Position numbers and translations under genes: made by a program. From Thermothielavioides terrestris NRRL 8126 (taxonomy: Eukaryota; Ascomycota; Sordariomycetes; Sordariales; Chaetomiaceae), in contig NC_016460.1 in the NCBI RefSeq assembly GCF_000226115.1, positions 1,116,001 to 1,180,000 of the forward strand: a DNA stretch of 64,000 nt. The letters are read 5' to 3'. Below the pieces are notes generated by a model, which saw only the letters and a list, made by a program, of their open reading frames with translations, had not been told where the DNA came from and ran no database searches. Positions 40,680 to 48,248 of the stretch are shown one piece after another (the stretch's first letter is position 1; each line of letters opens with the position of its first letter).

Positions 40680-40684
40680 CTTTT
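40680..40684. repeat. Target-site duplication, left copy (CTTTT)
   Basis: CTTTT directly outside the left LTR equals CTTTT at 48244-48248 outside the right LTR. A 5-bp duplication is the normal product of Ty1/copia integrase. Confidence 0.92.
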
Positions 40685-40866
40685 TGAGAAGAGCAGCGAA
40701 GTGGGGCCATGCAGGATGCAGAGGCATGTGTATTGAGAGAGGTGCTCCTCTCAAGCTGGGTGGGAGGAGCGCCGAGGTCTATATACATGTGTGGGCAGAG
40801 CTGACATGTGCCCCCTGAGCGCAGGGAGCCTGGCAGATAGAGTCACGTGTGCACTAGCACGCGACA
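40685..40866 (-). repeat. Copia 3' LTR (182 bp)
   Basis: On the plus strand it starts TGAGAAGAGC and ends GCGACA, so it is bounded by TG...CA in both readings. It is identical to 48062-48243. It holds TATATA at 40780-40785 and a 6-bp hairpin (GAGAGG TGCT CCTCTC) at about 40736-40751, which in the sense RNA could lie near the polyadenylation region (inference). Confidence 0.95.
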
Positions 40867-40876
40867 CACCCCCCAG
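40867..40876 (-). other. Copia polypurine tract
   Basis: The plus strand reads CACCCCCCAG, so in element sense CTGGGGGGTG directly abuts the 3' LTR. A G-rich tract here is the expected primer for plus-strand DNA synthesis. Confidence 0.75.
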
Positions 40877-40948
40877 ACAGACTCTCAGGAGGCTGTCTGT
40901 GGAACACGCATGCTGGGCACTGACTCTGGAGCTCGCACTGCCAGGCGC

Positions 40949-41338
40949 ATTGAACTGTGGCCTCCGGTATTGATCCCACCATTGCGCGCAGCCGCCGCCA
41001 TTGTGCAAGTTGTCCGCGCGCCATTGTGTACGCGTTGTGGCGCGTGCGTTGGCGAATTGCGTGCTGCGCTGAATGCGGTCAGACCCAGGGGCGCCAAAGT
41101 TGACATTCAGGGGCGCTGTCGTTGGCATTGTTGCGAGCGCCATTGATCGCATTGTGCGCAGTTCCCAATTGCGCAGCGCGTTCCATCCCCATCCTCCATT
41201 CAGGCGCGTATCTTGAATCGTGCCGCCTCGATTGTGGGTGCAGGTTGCGCAATTGAGCATTGCGATCATTCGCATGTGTGCCATTGTGGCCTTTGTTGCC
41301 CAACGTCTTGAATGCACGCCCACCATTGCTACCCATTG
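40949..41338 (+). repeat. Strand-biased ATTG array upstream of the passenger gene
   Basis: I count 16 ATTG tetramers on the plus strand in about 390 bp (for example CCATTGCGC, CCATTGTGC, GCCATTGATC, GCATTGTGCGC, CGATTGTGGG, CCATTGTTG) against about three CAAT over the same stretch to 41360. None continues as ATTGG, so these are not reversed CCAAT boxes. Spacing is irregular (about 10-60 bp), like a decayed tandem repeat or a dense binding-site array. It lies between the 3' LTR and the start of the spliced gene, hence in its likely promoter. Confidence 0.7.
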
Positions 41339-41513
41339 TTGCATTCGCGCCATGCAGACAATACCGCAGTGCCGCAGGCCGGTCGATGGCTGCACTCCTG
41401 GAAGTATTTAATCATGGTGAGTGCGCCTCAAACCATCTCCCGAACTCTTCCTCTGCAGACCGCGAGCAACAGCAGCAGCATCAGCAACAACAACAACATC
41501 AACAACAACAACC

Positions 41514-42427
41514 ATGCCGTCCTCTGCTCGCCTCGCCGCTCTCGAGAAGGCCCGCGCCGCCAAGGCGGCCAAGAACAAGCCTCCCCCGCTCCCGGCCACC
41601 CCCACCAAGGCTGGCGCTGGCGCCAGCAAGAAGTGAGCACACCACAATCTGCCCGACTGGCGCGGCGCGTACATCCGCGTCTCTGACACTTGCAGCAGGA
41701 CCCCCGCCACGCCGAAGACCCCCTCCAAGCGTGCGGCGCCCCCCTCCTCCTCCTCCTCCTCTTCGGAGGATGAGGAGGAGGAGGGCGCCCTGAGAGAGCA
41801 GCCCTGCCTGGGTTGCCTGAAGTCCGCCATGCGCGGCAAGAGCTCTGGGGAGTGCCGGGAGGCCCCCGGCAAAGCGGCCCGGTGCGCGCGCTGTGCGCGC
41901 GGCAAGAAGTGTCGCTCCATGTAAGTCTGTCAGCACAGTTGCAAGGCGCACGGTACTGATGAATCAGCCCCGCGAGTGTGCTCCCCGCCGCCAAGCACTT
42001 CCTGGCCCTGATGCAGGGGCGCCAGGAGCCCAAGGCCAATCTCGTGAGTACAAATGAAAAGACAAAGGAAAAGAGCTAGTCTGACTGTGTGTGGTAGGAC
42101 CAGAAGACGCTGCGCGCCACCCTGCGCGCCCTCCTCGCCATGGAGGGCGAGGACGCCGACGCCGAGGATGACGACGACGATGACGACGAGCGCGCGCCCG
42201 CGCCCGCCAAGGGCAAGGGCAAGGGCAAGGCAAAGGCGGCCGCGCCCACCAAGAAGTCCAAGAAGGCCAAGAAGGCCAAGAAGGAGGAGAGCGAGGAGGA
42301 GGACGAGGATGAGGACGAGAGCGAGGAGGAGGCTGCTCCGGGCTTTGACCCGGAGGCGCTGGCGCGTGGTGTGGCGGCGGCGGTGCTGGCCGCCATGACT
42401 CCCAAGAAGAAGAAGGGTGGCAAGTAG
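41514..42427 (+). CDS. Spliced antisense passenger gene of the Copia element; six-cysteine, highly charged protein
   Basis: Exons 41514-41632, 41696-41920, 41968-42043 and 42098-42427 (249 aa). Introns of 63, 47 and 54 bp have GTGAGC, GTAAGT and GTGAGT donors, AG acceptors and CTGAC/CTGAT-like branch sites, and join in frame. Start context is ACAACCATGCC. Residues 1-56 are Ala/Lys/Pro-rich; 57-69 are seven Ser then acidic residues. A cluster at 77-112 has cysteines 77, 80, 93, 103, 106 and 112 (CX2C-X12-C-X9-CX2C-X5-C), resembling Zn2Cys6 topology with a longer first loop, perhaps the DUF3716-like fungal cysteine domain (from memory, unverified). Residues 140-220 alternate Asp/Glu and Lys blocks; the end is KKKKGGK. 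It is convergent with pol, 87 bp between stops. A zinc-dependent nucleic-acid-binding accessory protein is likely but inferred. Confidence 0.82.
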
Positions 42428-42514
42428 TTCCGCGTTGTTGTTTGTTGTTTCGCGGGTGCGGGCACCCCCCAGTCTGTTTTGCGCCGGCGTGCGCTCCTGT
42501 GTTTAGTTTGTTTT

Positions 42515-45500
42515 TTACTCAAGCCTTGCGTTCCTGTCCCCCTGATCGTCTCCCTGCACCATATGACGCACATCCTGCAGGTTGAGGAGCTCCCTGAAGT
42601 GCTCGAACTTCTGGCGAGTCAACACCTTCGTAAGCCCATCTGCAGGCATCTCAGCAGTTGGCAAGTACGCGACCTCGAAAGATCCCTTCGCGTGTTCCTG
42701 ACGCAGCCACATGTTGTGGATGTCAACATGACGCAGGCGAGTGCTGATGCGTTCGTTCTCTCCCACCACGAGCCGGATGGTCTGCGTGTTGTCACAGAAC
42801 ACAGTCCAAGGCACACCCAGCTCAAGTTGCAGGTCGCTGAGGAAACGCTTGAACGCCATTGTCTCCCGCGCTGCGGTGGACAGAGCGAGGAGCTCCGCCT
42901 CCGTAGACGAGGTGGTGACTGTATCTTGGCGCGCAGCCTTCCAATGAACGAGCCCACCGAACAGAGAGATGAGATAGCCTTGTGACGACCTGCGCGTATC
43001 AGGATCATCCGCATGCGACGCGTCCCCTGCGATGAGCAAGATTTGCGTGGGAGCAGCATCCTGCGGCACACCCCCGAACTGAATAGCGAGGAAGCGCGTG
43101 CCAAACAGGTAGGAGATTGCATGCTTTGCAGCATCAATGTGTGTCCCCGAGGGGTTCGTCAGGAAGTGCGAGAGCAACGATGCCGGGAACGCGACCTCCG
43201 CGCGCAGTACGACCGCGGCGTAGAGTAGCGATCCAACAAGCTCCTGGAACAGCCTGATCTGCGCTCGAGTGGCAGTGCCAGTGAACTTGCGGAGTTCCAT
43301 TACAGGGAGAGGGATGCTTGGAAAGGTGATTTGATCCGCGAGACCGAAGCGCTTCGCAATCTTCTCGATGTACTGGTCAAGGCAGAGCCAGATCTTGCGT
43401 TGCGCGCGGTCGCGGATCACCCTGATGCCCAGGAACCAAGCCACGTCCCCCTTTTCGTGCACTTCGTACTTCGCTTTCAGAGCGTCGATGATCCTCTGAG
43501 CTGTCTCCGCGTGGTCTCTGTGGTAGAAGACTAGGTAGTCGTCCACGTAGAACAGCACGAGCACGCGCCGTTGGCGATCGAAGAACAAGCATGGCTCCTC
43601 AGGCGAAGCTGTGAGGCCGAGCTTCCGAAGTGTGCCGGAGAACTCTCGGTACCAGAGCAACGGAGACTCTCGCAAGCCGTACAGAGCTCTCTGCAGTTCC
43701 ACAAGAAATCCAGGCTCTTCGAACCCCTCAGGCATCTCGCAAACAACACCCTCAGGCAGGTCCGCATTCAAGAACGCCTGCGCTACGTCGAACTGCTTGA
43801 CCTCAAGATCAAACTGCGCGGCGATAGCCATCATTGTGCGGAACGAGCGCGCTGCGAGTGTGGCTGCATAAGTGCTTTGCAGAGTAGTGAGCTCCTGAAG
43901 GTCGCCTCGAACGCAGATGCGAGACTTGCACTTCTCGAGGTTGCCATTCTGATCGAACTTGTAGACGAAAACCCACTTCAGAGGGAGTGGTCTTCCTTTG
44001 AAGGTCTCGCGCCGAATCTTGCGCCATGTCTTCCTGTTGACGAGATTGCGAATCTCTTCCTCAGCCGCTTTGATGAACTCGGGCCCTTGAGGGTGGTTGG
44101 CGAGATCCCTCCAGCGCTTAGGAAGCTTGGCGAGGTCGTCAAAATGCACCCGGGGCCTGCTTGGCGTTGCCCCAGGACGCGCGTCACGATGTTGGCGGAC
44201 TGCCGCCGCGAAAACCGCATGCAATGTGCGGTGCTGGATGCTGTCGCCCTCCTGCAGAGCGATTACAGGGTCATCCAAAAATGTGTGGCTGAACGAATGC
44301 CACGCGTGCTGATCTGGTACGTCGATGCTCTCCTCATGGTACATGGGGGCTGCGAAGCACACCAGACCGCCGCTTCCGCCTGCACCGCCGCCGGGAGACT
44401 GTCTACGGATCCGTCTTGAGTAACGAGTTGGTGGTCCGTATACCTTGCGCACGTACTTGCGCTTCTCCCTCGCTGGCGTGGCTGCGGGTGTTCCAGAATC
44501 AGGCTGAGAACCATGGTTTGAGGCGTCTTCCCAGTCGTCTGGAGCCTCTGGCTGATCGCCAGGGCGGTCGACCTCCTCTTCACTGCTAGGAGTATCGACT
44601 GCGGCAGCACTTGCCGTCGTGCTGCCCTGGCTGGCACTCCTAGTTGTGCCGCCAGCGACGCTGCTACTGGCGTCTCCGATAACTGCATCAGGGGCCTCCG
44701 ATGATGCAGTTCCCACCGGTCTGCTGTCACTGCTAGCACCGTGATCAGCAGGGGGGCCGCTCCCTCCAAAACCGTCCGGGCGTTCCTGGCGCGGCTCCGG
44801 TGTTGGTTCTGGAGTGTAAAGACCACCAGTGGGCTCCTCACCCGAACTCTGGCCGCGATGCTCGAGTACTTCCGCACCCCCCAGACAGGATGGAGAGTGG
44901 GGAGGAGCCTGCCCTTCCGGTTCCCGTTCAGTCACACCCCCCAGATGTCCTGGAGAGCCGGGAACCGTCACTGGGTCTTCATGGGCATCTGTAACTCCGA
45001 ACGGCACTGCCTCGGCGTCCCGAGGCTCTATGGGGAGTTCGATGAGCTCAACAACCTTTCTGGCGACTGCCACCGATTGAGCATCAAGCTGCTCCTCTCC
45101 CTCCCGGTAGAACGTGCGTTCGTCAAAGGTCACGTTGCGCGTTGTGATGACCTTCCTGAGTTTCGGTACCCAGATGCGGTAAATGTTGGACGCCCTGTAT
45201 CCAACAAGATACCCGATGTGCGCTCTGGGCTTGACCTTCCCAGCACGCCTCTCAATCCCCTTTTCGCGTTCCTTCGTCAGCGGGTACGCTCGGCAGCCGT
45301 ACGCATAAACGCCGCCCCAGTTAGGGCGCAGGTCGGCAGTCAGGGAATGCACGAGACCGGGCTGATACCAGCGAAACCAGTGTCTGAACCAAGAGTCGAG
45401 CACCTCGTTCGGTGAGCGGTAGTTGCGAGCGCGACTTGGGCTTATGCCGTGCAAGTACGCAGCTGCAACCGTCGACTCTGGCCACAGGTTCTGAGGAAGT

Positions 45501-47884
45501 CCGGCGCCCGTGAGCATTGCAAGGCTCTTTGTGATAAGTTCTTTGCCTGCGCGTTCTGAACCGCCGTTGGGCTCCTTGGTATCCGAAGGCGTAACCTCCA
45601 AGTCGATGCCCTGCTCCTGCGCCCAGAGCTCGTACGCTGTGTATCCCTTGATGCCAATGACACTGGTGTCGCCATCCTGCCTGATCTTGCAGATGGGCAG
45701 CCCGAATTGGCGTTTCACCCAGCGTTCGAAGCGGACGAGCTCATCGTACACACTGTCGTGCGTCTTGCGTATGAGTGGAGTCGCGAAAAGCTTCCCACTG
45801 TACTCGTCCTTGATGACCAGCAGCCAGTTCGAGCCGTCAAGTGCCCTCGGAAAGTCGAACAGGTCCCAAGAGACCCTCCAAAATGGGCGTGGTGACGGCT
45901 TCGATGGTGGGCGGCGCGAAATAACCTGTTCCGCGTATGCCTGCGCGCATACCTCGCATTCCAGTCTGCGAGGCCCGCGAATCCGCACACCTCTGGCGTT
46001 CAAGACGAGATGTTCCAGCGCCTCTGAACTCAGATGACCAGATCTGATGTGCCAGAGAGCAGCTGGGTCTTCTCTCTCTGGGAGCGGGTCCTTGGAGGGC
46101 CTGCTCCTCCCAAAGTTCTTCACAACTGCAGCGCTCAAAGTCACAAGTCCGGCAAAGCTTCTGGGGAGCACCCGAAGGGCATCAGAGTAGGAGGAAAGAG
46201 CATTGTATTGCAAGAAGGTCAGGTTGAACTTCTCGACCAGCTGCCTGAGTACAATACTCTTCTCCAAAGTTCCCCAACGCAGCGTGCAATCCAGACCGCA
46301 GTACCAAGCGCCCTGCGCTCGAAGGCGTCTCTCAGAGACAATGTTGACGTGAAAGCCCTCGACGACAGCAACGTTGTCTATGACAAGGTCCTCAGTGTTC
46401 GGGCCGCGCGCGCCGTTCAAAACGTTCTTGATGATCCATTTGCCGCGGCCAGAGATTGGGAAGGATGTGGTGCCTGCCTCAACAGTCTCACCGCTCGTCT
46501 TGACGAACGTGCCAGGGACAAGGAGAGCCCTGTCATTGACGAGATTGACCGCTCCACAGTTGTCAAACAGAATGCACTTGCTGAGCGGGTGTGGGCCAAA
46601 CTCGAGAGATGCGAACACGCCACGCGCTCCTTCGAGCTCGCTTGCGATCGCTGGGTCGATGACAGCGTGCACCTGGAGCGCTCCCGGAAATGAAGGACCC
46701 GCGCCACTATTGGAACTAGTGGTCTTGGCGTTTGACGATGCGTTCTGGATCTTCCAACCGAGCTTCTGGAGCTCCACTCGAAGGTCGTTCCAGCGCTCCT
46801 TGGCGAATCGTTGGCGCACTGCATTCACCGCGTCGTTTGGGAGCGTCACGCCGTTCAGGGATTCCCCTGTCAGAGCGTACCGAAGTTGCCGACATTCCGA
46901 GGGAAACCACCAGTGGCGAAAAGTCTTCGGCTTGCACGGGCAGTCGCGGTTCTTCTTGCGCTTCTGACTGCCCTTCTGACCGTTCTGCGCTCCTGGAAGC
47001 ACGGGGTAGGCTCCAGGCTTCGGGTGGACCACCGCTTCAGCCTGGAGGATCGCCTCGAGTGAGAGAGCCAAGTCGAGAAGGGTTGGTCCTTTGCCGCCGA
47101 GCTTCTCAGTCACACTGATATCCTTCAGCATGCGAGTCGCCCACTCTGGATCCAAGCGTCTCTGCACAGTCTTGAGGAATGTGGTGACGGCTGTTGCGTC
47201 GGTGACTGCGGCGATGTTGGCCGCCCTTGCGCGGTGGAGGACCGACATGTACTCGAGAATCCAGGTCCTGGGTTCGACGCCGCTCTGGCTGCCTCTGGCA
47301 AGGACAGTTGCGTACTCCTCGGCAAGCGCAGTGAAAGTAGCGCTGTTGGAGGGTGCGATAATCTTGCGCAGCGTCTGTATAAACCCGCGTGTGCCGGTGA
47401 CGTTCTCGGCCTCCATGATGTCGTGTGCGGTGTGTGCGTAGCGGTCGCTGACAGACACGTTGATCATCTCGCGGAGCTTGTTGACGGCACGGAACGCCGC
47501 AGTGTCGATGGCGGACTTCGAGAACGCCTCGCACAGCTTGAGGAATTCACGGCGGATCTCCTCCTCAGTAGGATTGGTTGACTGAGGTTCCTCGCCACGG
47601 GTGGTGGGATCGGCTGCCTTCCAGGCTTGCAGTGCAGTGTGCCACGCCTGAAGATGGCGGTCCTGGACCGCCTGACGTGCCGCACCCTGGGTGGGCTGCA
47701 CAGGAAGGCCGAGCATCTCAGCCTCGGTGGCGAGCTCGGTGTCTGGGTCGATGATGTGCCAGACACGCAGGTTGTTGGCCTCTTGGCGAACAGCAGAGAT
47801 CCATCTTGGCCAGTCCTTGGGGCTGTCGAGGGTTGGAAGCGCTGCAACAGCAACGGTGACGGTTTTCTCAGTTTCGAGTGTCAT
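42515..47884 (-). CDS. Copia gag-pol polyprotein (Gag, protease, integrase, RT, RNase H), intact
   Basis: One uninterrupted 1789-residue ORF. The Gag-like region covers about 1-310, followed by a noncanonical zinc-knuckle-like CPCKPKTFRHWW...C near 314-330. Protease active-site region FDNCGAVNLV lies near 440. The integrase HHCC finger has WHIRSGH near 610 and CEVC near 643; catalytic Asp is in SWDLFDF (about 671), Asp in RQDGD (about 735) and Glu in NGGSERAGKE (about 776-781). The GYLVGY/TTRNVTFDE segment is the usual copia domain after integrase. Low-complexity Pro/Ser/Glu linker spans about 990-1180. RVT_2 reverse transcriptase has QFDVAQAFLNADL and YVDDYLV (about 1445); RNase H has AGDASHADD (1621), SSTEAELLAL (1661) and FCDNTQTIRL (1696). 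Integrase before RT is the defining Copia order. Gag and Pol are fused in one frame. It replicates the element in cytoplasmic particles and integrates the cDNA (family knowledge). Confidence 0.97.
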   Translation of the reverse strand: MTLETEKTVTVAVAALPTLDSPKDWPRWISAVRQEANNLRVWHIIDPDTELATEAEMLGLPVQPTQGAARQAVQDRHLQAWHTALQAWKAADPTTRGEEPQSTNPTEEEIRREFLKLCEAFSKSAIDTAAFRAVNKLREMINVSVSDRYAHTAHDIMEAENVTGTRGFIQTLRKIIAPSNSATFTALAEEYATVLARGSQSGVEPRTWILEYMSVLHRARAANIAAVTDATAVTTFLKTVQRRLDPEWATRMLKDISVTEKLGGKGPTLLDLALSLEAILQAEAVVHPKPGAYPVLPGAQNGQKGSQKRKKNRDCPCKPKTFRHWWFPSECRQLRYALTGESLNGVTLPNDAVNAVRQRFAKERWNDLRVELQKLGWKIQNASSNAKTTSSNSGAGPSFPGALQVHAVIDPAIASELEGARGVFASLEFGPHPLSKCILFDNCGAVNLVNDRALLVPGTFVKTSGETVEAGTTSFPISGRGKWIIKNVLNGARGPNTEDLVIDNVAVVEGFHVNIVSERRLRAQGAWYCGLDCTLRWGTLEKSIVLRQLVEKFNLTFLQYNALSSYSDALRVLPRSFAGLVTLSAAVVKNFGRSRPSKDPLPEREDPAALWHIRSGHLSSEALEHLVLNARGVRIRGPRRLECEVCAQAYAEQVISRRPPSKPSPRPFWRVSWDLFDFPRALDGSNWLLVIKDEYSGKLFATPLIRKTHDSVYDELVRFERWVKRQFGLPICKIRQDGDTSVIGIKGYTAYELWAQEQGIDLEVTPSDTKEPNGGSERAGKELITKSLAMLTGAGLPQNLWPESTVAAAYLHGISPSRARNYRSPNEVLDSWFRHWFRWYQPGLVHSLTADLRPNWGGVYAYGCRAYPLTKEREKGIERRAGKVKPRAHIGYLVGYRASNIYRIWVPKLRKVITTRNVTFDERTFYREGEEQLDAQSVAVARKVVELIELPIEPRDAEAVPFGVTDAHEDPVTVPGSPGHLGGVTEREPEGQAPPHSPSCLGGAEVLEHRGQSSGEEPTGGLYTPEPTPEPRQERPDGFGGSGPPADHGASSDSRPVGTASSEAPDAVIGDASSSVAGGTTRSASQGSTTASAAAVDTPSSEEEVDRPGDQPEAPDDWEDASNHGSQPDSGTPAATPAREKRKYVRKVYGPPTRYSRRIRRQSPGGGAGGSGGLVCFAAPMYHEESIDVPDQHAWHSFSHTFLDDPVIALQEGDSIQHRTLHAVFAAAVRQHRDARPGATPSRPRVHFDDLAKLPKRWRDLANHPQGPEFIKAAEEEIRNLVNRKTWRKIRRETFKGRPLPLKWVFVYKFDQNGNLEKCKSRICVRGDLQELTTLQSTYAATLAARSFRTMMAIAAQFDLEVKQFDVAQAFLNADLPEGVVCEMPEGFEEPGFLVELQRALYGLRESPLLWYREFSGTLRKLGLTASPEEPCLFFDRQRRVLVLFYVDDYLVFYHRDHAETAQRIIDALKAKYEVHEKGDVAWFLGIRVIRDRAQRKIWLCLDQYIEKIAKRFGLADQITFPSIPLPVMELRKFTGTATRAQIRLFQELVGSLLYAAVVLRAEVAFPASLLSHFLTNPSGTHIDAAKHAISYLFGTRFLAIQFGGVPQDAAPTQILLIAGDASHADDPDTRRSSQGYLISLFGGLVHWKAARQDTVTTSSTEAELLALSTAARETMAFKRFLSDLQLELGVPWTVFCDNTQTIRLVVGENERISTRLRHVDIHNMWLRQEHAKGSFEVAYLPTAEMPADGLTKVLTRQKFEHFRELLNLQDVRHMVQGDDQGDRNARLE

Positions 47885-48050
47885 CTTGAAGCAAACTGAG
47901 GTGTGCTGCGTTGTTCAGACTGAACGATGGGGGTGATGTGAACTTGTGGGAGTTGTTGACGATCGAGAAAACTGGAAGTGGTTGTTGGAGAAAAGAAGAA
48001 GGATGGCCCCAACTGGGCTACACCGCTGTTATGAGTGTTGTGCGCGAACC
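47885..48050 (-). other. Copia untranslated leader
   Basis: About 166 bp between the primer site and the polyprotein ATG. The right end forms an inverted repeat: GTTATGAG at 48028-48035 pairs with CTCATAAC at 48054-48061, so the primer site could fold into a hairpin. No upstream ORF is evident. Confidence 0.65.
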
Positions 48051-48061
48051 GGGCTCATAAC
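48051..48061 (-). other. Primer binding site matching the anticodon arm of initiator tRNA-Met (half-tRNA priming)
   Basis: The plus strand reads GGGCTCATAAC immediately next to the 5' LTR. This equals the anticodon stem-loop of eukaryotic tRNA-iMet (GGGCUCAUAAC, anticodon CAU), so the element RNA is complementary to it over 11 nt. Drosophila copia and yeast Ty5 are known to prime from the tRNA-iMet anticodon region rather than its 3' end. No match to a tRNA 3' CCA end is seen here. Confidence 0.85.
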
Positions 48062-48243
48062 TGAGAAGAGCAGCGAAGTGGGGCCATGCAGGATGCAGAG
48101 GCATGTGTATTGAGAGAGGTGCTCCTCTCAAGCTGGGTGGGAGGAGCGCCGAGGTCTATATACATGTGTGGGCAGAGCTGACATGTGCCCCCTGAGCGCA
48201 GGGAGCCTGGCAGATAGAGTCACGTGTGCACTAGCACGCGACA
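48062..48243 (-). repeat. Copia 5' LTR (182 bp) with promoter
   Basis: Identical to 40685-40866. TATATA at 48157-48162 is a plausible core promoter box, with transcription leftward. Equality of the two LTRs, which are made identical at insertion, indicates little time since insertion. Confidence 0.95.
48157..48162 (-). promoter_or_regulatory. TATA box of the 5' LTR
   Basis: TATATA is palindromic, so the copy in the 3' LTR (40780-40785) could in principle also serve rightward transcription toward the antisense gene. That second role is inference only. Confidence 0.5.
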
Positions 48244-48248
48244 CTTTT
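48244..48248. repeat. Target-site duplication, right copy (CTTTT)
   Basis: Matches 40680-40684 exactly. Removing the element and one copy rejoins the Gypsy-1 integrase reading. Confidence 0.92.

Follow-up and report, generated by a model that had tools for sequence, protein, structure and literature searches.

A predicted three-intron gene antisense to pol in a Ty1/copia retrotransposon of Thermothielavioides terrestris

Known antisense genes of retroelements and the predicted gene

Several retroelements carry a gene on the strand opposite to their own coding sequence. Boty-like Ty3/gypsy elements of Botrytis cinerea possess an additional antisense gene, brtn (PMC7264820, PMC8365987, PMC4227169), and antisense open reading frames (aORFs) have been described in the plant elements Grande (gene23), RIRE2, Retand and PvRetro13 (PMC7264820). 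Here we analyze a 64,000-nucleotide stretch of the Thermothielavioides terrestris NRRL 8126 genome (contig NC_016460.1, positions 1,116,001 to 1,180,000, forward strand), called the window below. Its minus strand carries a complete Ty1/copia element (window 40685–48243), and inside that element, on the plus strand, lies a predicted gene with three introns (41514–42427). We think it probable that this is a true accessory gene of an element that was active recently and suggest, more tentatively, that its product is a nuclear regulator of that element.

Boty resembles the present element in residing in a filamentous fungus and in having an antisense gene that lies between pol and the 3' long terminal repeat (LTR). 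However, Boty is a gypsy element (BcGypsy1, with a CHROMO domain in gag-pol) while the present element is a Copia. The plant aORFs likewise lie between pol and the 3' LTR, although their hosts are plants and no domain shared with the present gene was found here. Grande gene23 is transcribed from a promoter of its own, its product is nuclear, and a regulatory role of the product on the element has been proposed for plant antisense ORFs (PMC7264820); the word "intron" is absent from the main text of that review. Spliced antisense coding transcripts that act on the expression of the element are described for human T-cell leukemia viruses (HTLVs), namely HBZ of HTLV-1 and APH of HTLV-2/3/4 (PMC10186651). 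Like these, the present gene is an antisense coding gene of a retroelement, with splicing predicted here. HBZ and APH have their promoter in the 3' LTR and HBZ encodes a bZIP protein, whereas the 647 bp upstream of the present gene lie outside the 182-bp LTR and its product has no bZIP family among its Pfam matches up to E=10. In contrast to HBZ and APH, it also has three introns within the coding sequence. Spliced antisense long non-coding RNAs (lncRNAs) have also been reported for transposons of Blumeria hordei, including LTR elements; some of the examples are antisense lncRNAs of Ty1/Copia elements (PMC10648671). They resemble our locus in coming from fungal transposons with RNA, and introns, on the antisense side, both of which are predicted at our locus. 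The Blumeria RNAs are, however, described as non-coding and as running antisense to genes of the element itself, whereas the present gene is predicted to encode a protein. Two Blumeria introns are verified by sequencing, one in a Ty3/mdg4 antisense transcript and one in an intergenic transcript (PMC10648671).

An earlier note on this DNA, made from its letters alone, knew of no described fungal Copia with a spliced antisense accessory gene. That part has stood, in that the full-text literature searched, which excludes most subscription papers, named no Copia of a fungus whose antisense gene is both spliced and protein-coding. A term search of a Copia survey of filamentous ascomycetes (PMC5445492) found neither "antisense" nor "intron" in the main text. 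The claim is narrowed, however, by Boty brtn, the plant aORFs and the spliced antisense RNAs of Blumeria hordei. An antisense accessory gene between pol and the 3' LTR is a known kind of gene, and what appears to be new, within the literature searched, is the combination of a fungal Copia, three coding introns and selection measured without changes of the type produced by repeat-induced point mutation (RIP). Retrotransposition removes introns from the sense strand, and an intron-rich gene long kept inside a retrotransposon is unusual. Here many recent copies retain three introns, and RIP-mutated relatives of an older lineage permit a selection test from which RIP-type changes are left out. The element is a fungal system well suited to exploring the role that antisense accessory genes of LTR elements play, a question that the plant review leaves open (PMC7264820).

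The gene begins with an ATG at 41514 and ends with a stop codon at 42425–42427, and joining its four exons gives a protein of exactly 249 residues. Exon 1 (41514–41632) is followed by intron 1 (41633–41695, 63 nt, GTGAGC...CTGAC...CAG), exon 2 (41696–41920), which encodes a six-cysteine cluster (C77, C80, C93, C103, C106, C112), intron 2 (41921–41967, 47 nt, GTAAGT...CTGAT...CAG), exon 3 (41968–42043), intron 3 (42044–42097, 54 nt, GTGAGT...CTGAC...TAG) and exon 4 (42098–42427), which encodes acidic and lysine-rich arms. We performed a mechanical splice search with donors GT[AG]NG, acceptors YAG and introns of 40–130 nt. It returned 12 open three-intron joins, the longest of which is the 249-residue model with the full cysteine cluster, so that the coordinates, introns and length given in the earlier note are reproduced. 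The other joins place the acceptor of intron 1 or 3 either 3 or 6 nt downstream or use alternative donor and acceptor sites for introns 2 and 3. Retention of any one of the three introns introduces an in-frame stop. All three have a YTRAY branch-site word shortly before the acceptor, and only five such words occur in the whole 914 bp; these branch sites, together with the conservation pattern in an older subfamily described below, go beyond what had been noted before. The introns are called from sequence and conservation, and splicing is a prediction.

Copies of the gene and their linkage to Copia pol

We searched the whole genome (36,912,256 bp, six contigs) and found 40 gene places, counted in the gene's strand sense: 19 near-identical full-length copies, 20 older matches (some partial) and one fragment in a deleted element. 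All 19 near-identical copies retain the three introns and match over the whole gene length at essentially 100%. Thirteen score 1649 bits and six score 1645 bits, the latter carrying a G>T change at 42146 that replaces Gly157 with Cys (of 14 loci walked, 5 show the change directly). Eight elements were examined at both ends, and every one has its own 5-bp target-site duplication (TSD), different in each. These distinct flanking repeats indicate separate insertions that carried the introns along. The gene lies within the mobile unit, has been copied to many sites with its three introns and is present in an older diverged subfamily.

The persistence of the introns can be explained by their orientation. 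The gene would be transcribed from a promoter within the 647 bp that separate it from the 3' LTR, giving a spliced mRNA that runs toward pol. In the sense genomic RNA the introns would read CT...AC and would be kept as unspliceable complements, so that an intron-containing gene could endure reverse transcription. Nineteen copies with all three introns, together with eight of eight elements with their own TSDs, fit intron survival through antisense placement. Two statements of the earlier note are borne out here, namely that an antisense, intron-containing, protein-coding gene is integral to this Copia, for which signs of purifying selection are given below, and that antisense introns persist through retrotransposition, although the mechanism itself is a matter of inference.

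A Copia reverse transcriptase (RT) is found on the opposite strand, in the expected place, within 3 kb of 35 of the 40 gene places, at a distance of 889–1,017 bp in 34 of these and of 2,227 bp in one. The remaining five comprise L034, with pol adjacent, the internally deleted L091, and three places with an opposite-strand RT that lies 8.3–9.1 kb away in the expected direction, across a stretch that was left unread. The gene is present in most copies with its protein conserved, as in the known aORF elements. Among 96 matches to the RVT_2 family, 61 have no antisense gene inside 3 kb (the three distant-RT places are counted among them). Other Copia lineages of the genome seem to lack the antisense gene, although genes in advanced decay would have escaped detection. 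Another Copia lineage is apparently represented by the 13 best-scoring RVT_2 loci, which have fewer stops than other RIP-mutated loci and no such antisense gene beside them.

Fourteen of the 19 recent loci have an uninterrupted, full-length pol frame. Four copies (L023–L026) share a 22-bp tandem duplication in pol, at the window equivalent of 43408, that shifts the frame, and in all four the antisense gene is intact. Three of them were examined at both ends and all three have their own TSDs, which argues that the frameshifted elements probably moved in trans with an intact antisense gene. The nineteenth recent copy, on contig C3, has a shorter open frame of 817 residues around the RT, and its LTRs are 7,378 bp apart as against 7,377. 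Two of the recent copies (L016 and L019) carry a base change in an LTR.

Signs of selection on the predicted spliced frame in older copies

The older copies bear the marks of RIP (C to T, G to A), and each of eight older pol frames has 81–92 TAG codons. We read 11 of the 20 older gene matches for signs of selection. Sites where the window has C and a copy T, or G and A, were set aside as possible RIP, and a difference was scored as shared if at most one of the diverged copies that have a base at the site lacks it. Seven copies (L027–L029, L031–L034) differ from the window gene almost solely by RIP-type changes, and these common-type copies were scored singly. The other four (L030, L048, L049, L050) additionally share differences that RIP cannot produce, which indicates descent from a diverged subfamily.

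There are 36 shared non-RIP differences in the coding sequence, distributed 10/5/21 over the three codon positions (p=0.0009 for the third position). Fifteen of these are synonymous, whereas redistributing the same set of base changes across the coding sequence predicts 7.4 (p=0.002). A measure resembling dN/dS (the ratio of nonsynonymous to synonymous change) is 0.27–0.33 for the gene, depending on transition weight, and 0.22–0.33 for the four diverged copies taken individually; pol of L030 gives 0.12 on this measure. The earlier note had proposed to look in sister copies for a missing or broken frame or a dN/dS near 1. With the gene present in 19 copies and a ratio of about 0.3, its claim withstands that check as far as sequence goes. 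Third-position changes make up 6/11 of the changes in exon 2, 5/9 in exon 3 and 8/11 in exon 4, and the excess changes phase from one side of intron 2 to the other, as it must if the frame is spliced. Shared changes fall on 13 of 164 intron sites versus 36 of 750 coding sites (counts alone). Within the introns, donor, branch and acceptor sites were hit at 0 of 42 positions versus 13 of 122 in the rest, a marginal difference (p=0.04). Among distinct insertions and deletions (indels) of the eleven older copies, seven of nine in exons are multiples of three, while neither of the two in introns (+4, +1) is. None of the 21 non-synonymous changes alters a cysteine. The synonymous excess and the avoidance of splice signals in the older subfamily indicate that the gene is an old, selected component of the element, and the spliced frame, as judged from these aligned copies, bears marks of purifying selection between the diverged subfamily and the present one.

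One older copy is a mosaic. The pol and far upstream region of L033 are of the diverged type, with 158 non-RIP differences in pol of which 120 are common to L030, while its antisense gene is of the common type, with 4 non-RIP coding differences. The lineages thus seem to recombine around the antisense gene.

These data bear on two ways in which the protein might not matter. The antisense transcript could act as RNA, by forming double-stranded RNA or by transcriptional interference, with the protein incidental. Such a transcript would run toward pol, and spliced antisense non-coding transposon RNAs are reported for Blumeria hordei (PMC10648671). However, the synonymous bias, the third-position excess and the mostly in-frame exon indels indicate selection on the protein, and we regard an RNA role as highly improbable. 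Alternatively the gene might be passive cargo, either a recently transduced host gene fragment or one of the many long ORFs that this GC-rich stretch contains by chance. Its presence in 19 recent as well as older copies, with a ratio of about 0.3 against the diverged subfamily, already largely contradicts this idea, which is barely credible.

Predicted product, insertion sites and remaining features of the element

The 249-residue protein has an isoelectric point of 9.2, with 50 Lys and Arg and 41 Asp and Glu residues, a lysine-rich arm and acidic runs. Its cysteines form two groups, C-x2-C-x12-C and C-x2-C-x5-C. No Pfam family matched above its cut-off and a scan of NCBIfam returned nothing; the matches listed, all below the Pfam cut-off (best Pox_Ag35, E=0.006), fall mostly on the charged arm and were taken as composition. 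A sequence search of the PDB with the cysteine region found nothing.

The earlier note had named DUF3716 and Zn_clus as families to search with the protein and had suggested that the gene could be a captured host gene acting as a silencing suppressor, chaperone or host-gene regulator. A gene of this kind, captured from the host, might counter silencing or alter host genes. The six cysteines in two groups align loosely with host DUF3716 domains, ten of which exceed the Pfam cut-off genome-wide (L035–L044), and the fungal-type introns suggest a past as a spliced host gene. Neither DUF3716 (PF12511) nor Zn2Cys6 (PF00172) is among the Pfam matches of the protein up to E=10, however, and a profile of eight host DUF3716 domains scores 1.8 bits against it with an hhalign probability of 6%, so that the resemblance in layout is not significant. 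A host progenitor is likewise not found in the genome, where the best non-element match has E=0.13 at 20% identity. The family assignment is not upheld, and capture from the host, lacking a donor in this genome, is unlikely. We note that the name DUF3716 has no mention in the full-text literature searched.

Our best guess, by analogy with HBZ and with plant antisense ORFs such as Grande gene23, is that the product is a nuclear regulator of the element. On this tentative view, the small protein with its cysteine cluster and its lysine-rich and acidic arms would bind DNA or chromatin in the nucleus and so regulate the element.

Several points weigh against the gene being a selected accessory gene with such a product. 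Transcription, promoter and splicing are predicted from sequence, and zinc binding and nuclear location of the protein are inferred. The single-sequence structure model of the cysteine exon is of low confidence (predicted local distance difference test, pLDDT, 57; predicted template-modeling score, pTM, 0.24), and a search beyond this genome, made in prokaryote and virus contigs, found no homologue. Not all copies are fully independent; L015 (contig C1) and L022 (contig C2) have an identical 1,168-bp flank on different contigs, pointing to one insertion duplicated along with its surroundings, either by a segmental duplication of recent date or in the assembly. The selection analysis covers 11 of the 20 older matches and draws on 36 changes and one divergence among RIP-damaged copies, in which later mutation can blur bases. 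The seven common-type copies are too little diverged to add to it, having 1–4 non-RIP coding changes each and, in three of them, no synonymous change. Exon 1 has no third-position excess (3/0/2, 5 changes), and the splice-signal result is, as said, marginal. Both out-of-frame exon indels occur in L048, where we read them as later decay, and some of the in-frame indels may have arisen mechanically from the repetitive sequence of exon 4.

Recent copies sit in a distinctive environment. Their flanks on the 5' LTR side are AT-rich (GC below 0.45, whether measured across 1,168 bp or in the nearest 200 bp) at 16 of 17 distinct sites (L009–L026), compared with 8 of 40 200-bp genome samples (p=2e-7). 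The count is 17 of 18 with the duplicate L022 included, and the nineteenth copy lies outside it. The antisense product could, by binding AT-rich, RIP-mutated heterochromatin, steer or limit insertion or survival to it, and its charged arms resemble those of chromatin proteins. In chromoviruses, the integrase chromodomain performs such targeting. An AT-rich, RIP-type setting is compatible with targeting, but integrase preference or selection against genic insertions would yield the same pattern, and the odds of targeting are not raised by it. Moreover, nothing connects the antisense protein with integration, and the comparison covers gene-bearing elements only, so we find targeting by the antisense product quite unlikely. 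The broader proposal that antisense placement is a general intron refuge, and that a spliced chromatin-binding protein of this Copia directs the element to AT-rich heterochromatin mutated by RIP, or confines it there, strikes us as distinctly improbable.

The element itself has the organization of an intact Copia, as the earlier note had held. Its 182-bp LTRs (TG...CA; 3' LTR at 40685–40866, 5' LTR at 48062–48243, both minus strand) are 100% identical, and it is bounded by the TSD CTTTT at 40680–40684 and 48244–48248. Paired LTRs with a 5-bp TSD, as expected of Ty1/copia, were found in all eight elements checked at both ends. The gag-pol frame (42515–47884, minus strand) is uninterrupted over 1,789 residues from its first Met. 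It contains an RVT_2-type RT (Pfam PF07727, 4.1e-32, residues 1305–1529) as in Ty1/copia elements, and N-terminal of this, where the integrase region of such elements lies, a retroviral SH3-like domain (residues 863–935). In the Pfam scan of pol, the integrase core had no match and GAG-pre-integrase matched only below its cut-off; pol had no relatives among prokaryote and virus contigs, and a sequence search of the PDB found nothing. The antisense gene and pol are tail-to-tail, with 87 bp between the gene and the pol stop codon. An ORF on the opposite strand between pol and the 3' LTR is the arrangement of the aORF-3R class.

The region between the 3' LTR and the gene (40867–41513, plus strand), the presumed antisense promoter and 5' leader, contains a TATA-like word, TATTTAA, at 41405–41411. 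Between 40948 and 41338 it also holds eleven CATTG words and none of the reverse complement, compared with 2.5 expected in shuffles (maximum of 9 in 1,000 shuffles). Some 5-mer reached 12 in the shuffles, which makes the enrichment unsafe after the fact, and non-RIP changes of L030 strike the CATTG words (2/40) as often as the remaining upstream sequence (23/456). For these reasons no role is claimed for the words.

Other remnants of the family were also observed. L091 (G000:C1:9629000–9630800) has an internal deletion that joins an LTR and the 3' region up to window 41677, in intron 1, to the last 104 nt of an LTR. Apparent solo LTRs lie at G000:C1:4908027–4908208 and C1:4384547–4384728, with no listed partner at 7.4 kb; LTR pairing was scored for 40 of 90 LTR candidates.

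A G6 run adjoining the 3' LTR (40869–40874, minus strand) is the likely polypurine tract. The likely primer-binding site lies directly after the 5' LTR (48040–48061, minus strand). Its plus strand ends in CTCATAAC, which we take to be the sequence found in the anticodon loop of initiator tRNA-Met, and this candidate site suggests that a half-tRNA is used as primer.
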